From Candidatus Altimarinota bacterium (lineage in GTDB: Bacteria > Patescibacteriota > Gracilibacteria > Absconditabacterales > Absconditicoccaceae): 50,860 nt of DNA. Below are positions 992-21,901 of the stretch, in pieces. Each line of letters begins with the position of its first letter. Positions within the stretch are counted from its first letter, which is position 1. The DNA lies in assembly GCA_027046965.1 (NCBI GenBank), contig JALTWR010000011.1, forward strand, positions 1 through 50,860, read 5' to 3'. The notes under the pieces were generated by a model that was not told the DNA's origin, did not search any database, and was given only the letters and a program-made list of their open reading frames with translations. A program made the position numbers and the translations under genes.

Positions 992-1570
992 TTATTTGGT
1001 TAAATAGGGTTGAATAATTTTTAAAACTTCCTCCAACACCTTCTCTGGAGAGACAGAGGCATCTATCATAAAATCCACAAGTTTTTGACCAAGAACTTTT
1101 TCCTCCATTCAGCTTTGAACTCTGCTTTCAAGTTCTTCCATAGCTATATGTGGTTGCCTTTGCAAAATACGATTTTTAATCTCTTTAATAGGTAAATCCA
1201 AAAAGATAGTTTTAAATTTGTCAGGAATTTCATTTTTTTGCAAAAGCCAAAGCAATCACTTCATATCAAGCTCTTTTATCACCACTTTCCCTTCCTTCAA
1301 CGGATTTAAAACGCTATCTCTATCAGTCCCATAAAAATGTTTTCCATGAACTACTGCCCACTCTAGGAAATCTCAATTTTCTATCTTTCTCTTAAATTCT
1401 TCTTTAGTGATAAAAAAATAAGGGTCTCATTGTTTTTCTCACTCCCTCATCTCACGAGTGCTAAAAGATGGTACAAACACTATACGCTCATCTCAATCAA
1501 AATATTTTTTCAAGTTTTTAATCAAAGTCGACTTCCCAGCACCAGAAACTCCAACGATGAAAAAGATCAT
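992..1570 (-). CDS. gmk: guanylate kinase
   Basis: Guanylate kinase phosphorylates GMP or dGMP to the diphosphate with ATP in purine salvage. The 192-residue product has the usual family length. A P-loop GVSGAGKST is at residues 7-15, followed by the STRE GMP-binding segment, the YFFITKEEF segment, and NGDFLEWAVVHG, where the first glycine is UGA. It starts at an ATG directly abutting the TAA stop of tyrS (TAAATG), so translation is probably coupled, and it ends with TAA. Every interrupting TGA falls where other guanylate kinases have glycine. Family assignment is secure. Confidence 0.95.
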
Positions 1571-2955: not shown

Positions 2956-2987
2956 AAAAAGAAAAGGCCCCTGGAATGCCAGGAACC
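2956..2987 (-). terminator. intrinsic terminator of the structured RNA
   Basis: Read on the minus strand, a 9-bp stem GGTTCCTGG / CCAGGGGCC (two G-U pairs, loop CATT) is followed by TTTTCTTTTT. It closes the RNA transcribed from about 3231 and separates it from tyrS. Confidence 0.8.
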
Positions 2988-3231
2988 TGCCTTTCAAGCT
3001 GGGGAGGCAGGAATTCCCGGCGAGATTTTATACAGCCACAGGCTTCCATAGCTATATAGAATCTCGCCGTTGCCTCCCCAGCCCATTTTGAGTGGTTTTG
3101 CTTGTTGCCTTACCCCCTGGTGGAGGTTAGGTCAACCAACCACCCCTTGTCCAATATATTGGGCTAGGTGGTGCGGTTGGGCTTTAACGCCCGACGTGCT
3201 GGAATACCAGCATCTTTTGTTTTTATTTACA
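2957..3231 (-). ncRNA. unidentified structured non-coding RNA, about 275 nt
   Basis: There is no credible reading frame here, but the stretch is GC-rich and highly foldable in an AT-rich genome. In transcript order I see a TGCTGG/CCAGCA hairpin, a GGGC/GCCC hairpin, a stem ACCACC/GGTGGT enclosing the palindrome CCAATATATTGG, a CCTCC/GGGGG hairpin, and then a long rod. The rod has a 12-bp perfect outer helix (2998-3009 with 3071-3082) and an inner helix GGCGAGAT/ATCTCGCC (3019-3026 with 3061-3068). A terminator follows. A TTGAAA-16 nt-TATAAG promoter precedes it. I find no RNase P, SRP, tmRNA, 6S or T-box signature, so the identity is open. It could be a very divergent housekeeping RNA or a lineage-specific one. 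Confidence 0.7.
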
Positions 3232-3237
3232 ATTTAA

Positions 3238-3265
3238 CTTATAGTCAATTATCCTGTATTTTCAA
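3238..3265 (-). promoter_or_regulatory. promoter of the structured RNA
   Basis: On the minus strand, TTGAAA (3260-3265), a 16-nt spacer and TATAAG (3238-3243) would start transcription near 3231, just where the folded RNA begins. The -35 box lies 30 nt beyond the stop of the upstream gene. Confidence 0.55.
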
Positions 3266-3295: not shown

Positions 3296-4105
3296 TTATT
3301 TTTGCTTTTTAAGATATTGACTATTTGTCAAAAACAAAATAGGTATAGACGCCCTCCACCAATATTTTGGGAAGTAAAAATAAATATTATTAGGCACAAA
3401 GTCAAAACAATCGTTAACTTTCTCATTGAACTTGTGCATATCTAAGCCTTTTTTATCCACAACATTTCATAAATAAATATAACACACTTTATTTTTATCA
3501 AACGTATTTATCAATCCGCTTAATGGATCCGTTTTCTTGTCAATTCCTGCCCCGAGATAAACTAGTATATCTCAACTACCTAGTAAGTCTTTATAAGGAG
3601 TTATAACCAATTTGTACTTTCCAAAATCTAGCATTTTTACATCTATCTTATCAGCGTCTAGAGAAGGCAATTTTACGTGTTTGATTTCTGTCTCTTTAAC
3701 AGTTATTTTGGTAGCAAAATCAAATGGATTGACAAAACTAACAAGATTCAATCATTTTTTACGAGCCAATAGTGTAATCAGGGCAGCTTCTGCCATACTT
3801 CAATCATCTGTGATCCCCACCCTAAAGTTTAAGTTAGGGAAAATTTTTTCTCACTTGCCCTCCAAAATTAACTGTTTAACTAGATTGAAATCAATCACTT
3901 TTGAAGTCTGATTAGGGACCCTCCGCTCACCTAAAATAGGATCCGGTGAGCCAACAAATCGTAACTCATCCCATCAGCTTTGAACTACTAAAGGTTTATT
4001 TATATATGATGGATGGTATAAATATCCCCTTTCTTGAATAATCCAGGCAATTAACAAGATTAACAAAGATCAAATAACACTCAATAAAAATATATACTTT
4101 CTCAT
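3296..4105 (-). CDS. membrane-anchored protein, possibly LytR_C-like
   Basis: The 269-residue product starts with a single hydrophobic segment at about residues 4-21 (YIFLLSVIGSLLILLIAWII) and is otherwise predicted to lie outside the cytoplasm. The middle, with RVGITDDGSMAEAALITLL followed by a KITVKETEIK stretch and a GDILVYLGAG segment near the end, has the general pattern of the LytR C-terminal domain found in LytR-CpsA-Psr wall-polymer ligases. That resemblance is weak and the catalytic LCP domain is absent. Several UGA codons are read as Gly. It stops with TAA. It lies directly downstream of the S-layer gene, with a strong terminator between them. Function unknown. Confidence 0.75.
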
Positions 4106-20527: not shown

Positions 20528-21901
20528 TTAGTGAGCAACAGGAAATCCTGCTTGAAGCCGAGCAGAGAATCATCAAATCAAGTAAAGAACATTTTTAAAA
20601 CCGTTATCCTTCATCCACTTATAGGTCTCTATAGCAACTCCTCCATTTTTATCATAGATTGCATAAAGTCATTCCTTAGGGAACTGAGACAATCTATAGA
20701 TGTCCTCTACTTTTTGTACATCTATATTTTCCACTGTTCCTGGAATTCGTCCAGCTAGAATTCTTTCCTGTTCATTTCTAAGATCCAAAACAATTAATCC
20801 TGGAGATCCTATTATATGATAAAATTGAGCTGCATTAAGTCCAGAATAAGTATCAAAGATATACATTAATTCTTCCAATGTTAAATTTCATACCTGTGTA
20901 GACACAAAAATTGGGTCAACACTGTCTTGTTGCGTTGTTGTGTCTCATGTCAGTGTTGTGTCTCATGTCAGTGTTGTATCTCATGTCAGTGTTGTGTCTC
21001 ATGTTAGTGTTGTGTCTCATGTTAGCGTTGTATCTCATGTCAGCGTTGTATCTCATGTCAGTGTTGTGTCTCATGTTAGCGTTGTATCTCATGTCAGCGT
21101 TGTGTCTCATGTTAGCGTTGTATCTCATGTCAGCGTTGTGTCTCATGTTAGCGTTGTATCTCATGTCAGCGTTGTGTCTCATGTTAGCGTTGTATCTCAT
21201 GTCAGCGTTGTGTCTCATGTCAGCGTTGTGTCTCATGTTAGTGTTGTGTCTCATGTCAGTGTTGTGTCTCATGTCAGCGTTGTGTCTCACGTCAGTGTTG
21301 TATCTCATGTCAGCGTTGTGTCTTGCTGGACTTCCGGATCAACTAATGGTTCCGATTGCTGTATTTCTTCTTGTCTTTGCTGAACTTCCTCCTGAAGCTG
21401 TTGTATTTCTTCCTGAACTTCCTCTTCCAATTCCATAATATCTTGAACCTCCTCTTCTAATTTCTGAACTTCTTCTACTACCTCGCCACTCAAGACACCT
21501 TCTTGAATCAATTGTTTTATCTCTTCTATTTGCTGTTGTAAATTTCCTGTTAGCATTATTCCCGTTCCTAAAACATTTTCTATTCTCTCCGATAGTTGCT
21601 GAACTTTTTTTTGAGCTTGTTTTTTCTTTATCTTAGCAGCTACCACCTTTTTTCTAAGTTGGGGCTTTTGATTTATTAGCGCAGTTAACTTTTCTTGCTC
21701 CTCTTGCTGAGAAATAACCTCCTCTAAAATAGGTTGTAAGCTTTCTCAAGAAGCTTGTTTGTTTTCTGTTTTAACAACCAATACCTTTTTGGGCTGCAAA
21801 ACAATAGGAGAGCTTGTTTGCTTATAATTGCTAATTAAAAAATATGCTCCCCCTCACACCACTAATCCTCCTCAGATAAAAATCAACATTTTGATATTCA
21901 T
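20528..21901 (-). CDS. membrane-anchored protein: coiled coil, (GDTTLT)n repeat, rhodanese-like domain
   Basis: A 457-residue protein in four parts. (1) A membrane anchor at about residues 4-22, with UGA glycines in FIGGGLVVGGGAYF. (2) A Glu/Gln-rich coiled coil to about residue 194 (QLQEEVQQRQEEIQQ and similar). (3) 21 copies of the hexapeptide GDTTLT, every Gly being UGA. (4) A C-terminal rhodanese-like domain (LEELMYIFDTYSGLNAAQFY, GLIVLDLRNEQER, YLIGGFSARLQAGFPVAH). The rhodanese active-site loop reads AIYDKNGGVA and has no Cys, so sulfur-transfer activity is unlikely and a binding role more probable. The topology cannot be told from sequence. Stop TAA. In the standard code it is at least three unrelated-looking ORFs. 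Confidence 0.85.
20942..21319 (-). repeat. 18-nt tandem repeat, 21 copies
   Basis: Units of 18 nt (plus strand GTCTCATGTCAGTGTTGT and close variants) encode TTLTGD on the minus strand. Variation is confined mostly to four silent positions. Units 8-15 alternate strictly between two variants, giving a 36-nt higher-order unit, a sign of recent expansion. All 21 units keep the TGA codon. Confidence 0.95.

Follow-up and report, generated by a model that had tools for sequence, protein, structure and literature searches.

A structured RNA upstream of tyrS in an Absconditabacterales bacterium as a candidate member of a new lineage-specific family with a conditional terminator

Which function might be served by a long, GC-rich and strongly folding stretch between a membrane-protein gene and tyrS in a tiny bacterium, as yet uncultured, whose TGA codons mean glycine instead of stop? 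Little is known about RNA regulation in Patescibacteria. In the collection of papers that was searched, nothing relevant turned up on T-box riboswitches or non-coding RNA of these bacteria, and a 2024 perspective discusses riboswitches in Patescibacteria only as possible genetic tools (PMC11665869). The window, i.e., the whole stretch of 50,860 nucleotides analysed here, is one contig (C11) of a draft genome of Candidatus Altimarinota bacterium, and the genome-wide scans took in all 854,813 bases of that genome. Long genes of the host stay open only if TGA encodes glycine (code 25), and the records in which its tyrS has homologues bear the label Absconditabacteria/SR1 or Gracilibacteria. The island is flanked by two minus-strand genes, a membrane-protein ORF (3296-4105; no Pfam match) and tyrS (1571-2860, TGA read as Gly; Pfam tRNA-synt_1b and S4). 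tyrS lies about 100 nt downstream of the terminator of the RNA and is directly followed by gmk (992-1570, minus strand; Pfam Guanylate_kin). Elsewhere, the window holds a tandem repeat gene with about 20 LTGDTT repeats under code 25 (20835-21438), and the end of contig C31 (L207:7800-8203) forms a long inverted repeat that takes in a portion of a tRNA gene and may be an artefact of assembly.

First, we focus on the island itself. An earlier note, made from the letters alone, had described a GC-rich structured island at 2957-3231 with at least five stems, its own promoter and a strong terminator, and this description is confirmed. The stretch of about 275 nt has a shuffle z-score of -10.4 on the minus strand and -8.6 on the plus strand, and 0 of 200 shuffles were as stable on either strand. 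Its minus strand ranks first in a 120-nt stability scan of the whole genome (-71 kcal/mol), in which the rRNA and RNase P stretches are weaker, and BLAST finds its sequence only once in the genome. The note gave no strand; stability, promoter, terminator and homologues agree that the RNA is encoded on the minus strand, and a plus-strand transcript was rejected because its fold is less stable and promoter and homologues favour the minus strand. The promoter-like site, TTGAAA (-35 element, 3260-3265, minus) and TATAAG (-10 element, 3238-3243, minus) at a distance of 16 bases, matches at 11 of 12 positions and would place the transcription start near 3231. The spacing TTGAAA-N16-TATAA is enriched in the host genome (22 cases vs 3-8 at other spacings) and likewise in G004, a complete genome of another genus (71 vs 13-30). 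Promoters of the lineage, as seen in these two genomes, consist of TTGAAA or TTGACA, 16-17 bases and TATAAT, and their -35 boxes often overlap the end of the U-run of a preceding terminator. At the other end of the island, an intrinsic terminator hairpin (2965-2988, minus) is followed by UUUUCUUUUU at 2964-2955.

The minus-strand fold comprises six hairpins (all coordinates below refer to this strand). Hairpin H1 (3197-3212, UGCUGG-UAUU-CCAGCA) has a loop similar to that of the terminator, GG-CAUU-CC. In the host genome, the count of GG-UAUU-CC hairpins with at least 5 bp is only two, and a second such hairpin was read in an RNA upstream of pheT, described below. A small hairpin, GGGCGUUAAAGCCC (3179-3192), and the hairpin ACCACC..GGUGGU (3139-3172) are confined to the window copy, while the hairpin H2 with its ACCA loop (3103-3137, GUUGA..CCACCAGG..CAAC) is conserved and covaries in three genera. 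Then follows a long rod, whose outer 5' strand (segment 1, 3071-3082) forms with 2998-3009 the 12-bp perfect helix that had been noticed before. The inner helix enclosed by it is also present; it had been given as 8 bp and in fact spans 10 bp (3060-3069 with 3018-3027), within an inner part with further pairs and the apical loop (3018-3069). The 3' strand of the rod (segment 2, 2998-3011) has a second possible partner: its nucleotides 3005-3011 (CCUGCCU) can pair instead with 2986-2992 in segment 3 (AGGCAGGUUCC, 2982-2992), which either pairs with the rod 3' strand or provides the 5' arm of the terminator (segments 3:4). This alternative helix has 7 bp and continues past a UU bulge with 4 more (2982-2985 with 3014-3017).

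The island was compared with the 4227 families of Rfam 15 by cmscan, at the gathering score and then at E<=10. At the gathering score the island has no match, and the window yields only tmRNA and tRNAs; at E<=10 only chance matches appear, of which the best, a microRNA family and wcaG, lie far below the cut-off and are not believable. BLASTN of the window RNA or its counterpart in record L069 against relatives retrieved no RNA homologue by DNA similarity. A similar island is located upstream of tyrS in G015 (record L069), which represents another genus and whose tyrS is 66% identical. The G015 and window RNAs share the order H1-H2-rod-terminator-UUUUCUUUU. The gene upstream of the G015 RNA is divergent, and therefore this RNA needs its own promoter. 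G004 has a homologue that is convergent with tyrS, at a distance of 50-60 nt from the 3' end of the gene. Common to the homologues beside tyrS are the covarying H2 hairpin, a long GC rod and a terminator, and the terminator tail UUUUCUU recurs.

Conservation was modelled in H2 alone, because MAFFT misaligns the whole RNAs. On a structure drawn by hand on the three orthologues, 5 of 11 H2 pairs are changed on both sides among the three sequences from three genera, 97% of the cells are paired, and 2 of 500 shuffles were as good. Run on 49 family genomes, a covariance model of H2 (R1) scores the three orthologues at 42-46 bits (window site, 42.7 bits) and leaves everything else at 19 bits or less; 3 of the genomes have a match at E<1e-6. 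Among 353 genomes of the class, a search pattern for H2 is present in 6, as compared to two for the reversed pattern; three of the six are the sources of the tyrS-linked RNAs, and of the other three, two were inspected and neither was taken as a member. The earlier note had named a strong Rfam hit and a lack of covariation among homologues as refuting results. As there is no Rfam match and compensatory changes are found in the homologues beside tyrS in two other genera, neither occurred, and its proposal of a new RNA class gains support. In a tyrS tree the window joins G015 and the position of G004 is not resolved; thus, one origin with later divergence is only a possibility.

Folding scans extend the set beyond tyrS. 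An RNA of the same look lies upstream of pheT in the host genome (L162:15960-16245, minus strand, contig C2); it is very stable, terminated and has CCACCAGG and GG-UAUU-CC hairpins like the window RNA. Another was found in G004 upstream of a 5'-3' exonuclease gene. Both are likely paralogues, so that we count three clear orthologues, two likely paralogues and one doubtful member (G004 28.8 kb, without H2). Several likely members lie 60-100 nt upstream of a same-strand gene. A descriptor that demands a rod 3' strand also pairing with the terminator arm was run on the host genome, G004 and L069 (about 2 Mb) and gave three matches and none in reversed sequence. Two of them, the L069 RNA and the G004 exonuclease copy, had been used in its design; the third, G004:410255 (minus), was new, and it lies beside tyrS and carries H2, neither of which is part of the descriptor. 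Among 17 CCACCAGG sites in the host genome and G004, a strong rod follows in each genome's two RNAs and in an unrelated hairpin pair at L209. Sites with CCACCAGG in G008, in G019 and at further places in G015 were rejected, having no strong rod nearby, and that in G008 is coding; weaker structures upstream of tyrS in G002 and of pheT in G021 showed none of the family's marks when read by eye. Three further observations concern other structured stretches. Strong GC-rich hairpins with CCACCAGG occupy short intergenic stretches of the host genome at L209:12820-12980 and L218:8310-8390. G004 has two near-identical strong folds near 77,520 and 971,000 (L249, L294), AAACCCTCCAC..GCAAGCGG..CCCCCTGATAAGGGGG. 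At L172:3560-3700 (plus strand), a structured stretch of about 130 nt with no Rfam match is located directly 5' of an atpB-like gene.

The feature that might link these RNAs mechanistically is the dual complementarity of the rod 3' strand, which in most members matches both the rod 5' strand and the start of the terminator. Contiguous 2:3 pairs number 13 in G015, 14 in the tyrS-linked copy of G004, 11 each in the G004 exonuclease and 28.8 kb copies, 7 in the window (plus the 4 across the bulge) and 7-9 in the pheT copy. The alternative helix is kept although the sequences of the RNAs are unrelated. When the rod 3' strands of six RNAs were assigned to terminator arms, the pairing of each with its own arm came first of 720 assignments (-149 kcal/mol vs a mean of -88, sd 14), with the qualification that the tyrS-linked copy of G004, as opposed to the other five, had been found by this very complementarity. 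The pheT copy, in which the alternative helix is weak, is the sole RNA failing its row in this test. For three RNAs, those of the window, of G015 and of the G004 exonuclease locus, rod and anti-terminator differ by no more than about 3.5 kcal/mol as long as the terminator is incomplete, and the minimum-energy state is rod plus terminator; in the tyrS-linked copy of G004, the two states are within 1 kcal/mol. Furthermore, the 100 nt before tyrS in the window hold no convincing same-strand promoter (best score 8/12), so that RNA polymerase starting at the promoter of the RNA probably reads through to tyrS-gmk. Promoter-like sites lie right behind the terminator for the gene downstream of the G015 RNA and for the pheT and exonuclease copies.

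At the level of sequence, then, the RNA has a promoter-like site and a terminator, H2 with its ACCA loop covaries, and the 3' strand of the long rod has two pairing options. We give an even chance to the reading that the island belongs to a family, new and specific to this lineage, whose RNAs are transcribed separately and end in a conditional terminator, a two-state switch. With the rod (1:2) formed, the terminator (3:4) would form and transcription would stop. A signal that opens the rod or favours 2:3 would block the terminator, and RNA polymerase would read on, in the window into tyrS-gmk. Candidate signals are a tRNA, TyrRS, a small molecule or the nascent ribosome. From this arrangement we infer a two-state conditional terminator, which in the window probably attenuates tyrS-gmk, with termination as the putative control point. 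Copies with no same-strand gene behind them, such as that by tyrS in G004, would have to act in another way, via the RNA itself or via antisense read-through into tyrS. Since that copy is convergent, tyrS attenuation cannot be the universal role, and the RNA must be more than a leader of tyrS. The promoter-like sites behind the other copies likewise speak against a pure leader role. The genes downstream of the copies share no obvious pathway beyond the two synthetases, which counts against the switch, as do the weak alternative helix of the pheT copy, the lack of H2 in the 28.8 kb RNA of G004 and the small number of clear orthologues. A more elaborate proposal, which we regard as speculative and rather improbable as a whole, is a new RNA class in which the ACCA-loop hairpin senses the signal (e.g., a tRNA or an aminoacyl-tRNA synthetase) and shifts the strand between rod and anti-terminator, acting on synthetase genes in cis and, in the convergent copy, in trans or antisense.

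Which other readings would account for the same RNA? The most serious, a real contender albeit short of an even chance, is a small RNA that acts in trans, be it as a regulator or in housekeeping, and has a promoter and terminator to itself; the complementarity of rod and terminator would then serve the refolding of the RNA or stem from repeated rod sequence, and the neighbours would be incidental. The convergent orientation in G004, the divergent upstream gene in G015, the separate promoter-like sites of several downstream genes and the fact that H2 and not the switch is the best conserved part all speak for it. Against it count tyrS as the neighbour in three genera, the position of several likely members upstream of a same-strand gene, the absence of an evident tyrS promoter in the window and an alternative helix kept without sequence conservation. 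Attenuation by a leader peptide, where a ribosome stalled at Tyr codons of an ORF in the rod opens 1:2 so that 2:3 forms and tyrS is transcribed, seems unlikely. The layout of mutually exclusive helices 1:2, 2:3 and 3:4, with 3:4 as intrinsic terminator, is exactly that of the trp, his and phe attenuators, the window RNA precedes a synthetase gene, and a minus-strand ORF through its rod has three Tyr codons within 12 codons (..EILYSYGSLWLYK..), a number reached by 5 of 200 shuffles. Yet there is no Tyr codon excess in G015 or G004 and no Phe excess in the pheT copy, the small ORFs are not conserved among the homologues, and the family, unlike these attenuators, has no conserved leader peptide rich in cognate codons, carries the extra conserved H2 and includes the G004 copy with no gene directly downstream on its strand.

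The remaining readings invoke known RNAs or mobile DNA. A diverged T-box leader sensing tRNA-Tyr would explain a structured, terminated RNA 5' of tyrS and pheT with alternative terminator and anti-terminator; it is very unlikely, as RF00230 matches neither the window (E<=10) nor the homologues (E<=1), the T-box sequence AGGGUGGNACCGCG is absent before the terminator, no specifier stem was recognised by eye, the parts come in a different order and the G004 copy is convergent. That the island is an SRP, 6S or RNase P RNA in highly diverged form is less probable still. The earlier note had considered an extreme RNase P RNA, which is refuted by the RNase P RNA of this genome on contig C9 (RF00010, 126 bits), or an extreme SRP RNA, which finds no support. 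SRP RNA also has a long rod and, expected in bacteria, was not found here: RF00169 and RF01854 have no match in the host genome at E<=10, and in a search of 49 family genomes with the model of small bacterial SRP RNA, none was recognised at E<=1. The island, however, matches no SRP model and differs in having no GGAAGCAG core of conserved tetraloop and internal loop, and a simple motif search for the Ffh/FtsY P-loop found none in the host genome or G004. SRP may be missing from the lineage or strongly diverged in it. With 6S RNA the island shares its own transcription unit, a long rod and a 3' strand able to refold into a downstream hairpin, but RF00013 does not match, the rod is internal, between other hairpins and the terminator, and instead of a large conserved central bubble there is a bulge that varies in side and size between copies. 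Equally improbable is the remnant of a mobile element flanked by palindromes: the loops of H1 and of the terminator agree in both the window and the G015 copy, whereas the sequence is single-copy, the tyrS neighbourhood is common to three genera and H2 covaries.

These comparisons show that strongly structured RNA genes of this lineage escape Rfam. If the two-state switch is true, a synthetase-linked RNA that has kept the change from rod to anti-terminator would be a concrete, testable regulator for host-dependent cells.
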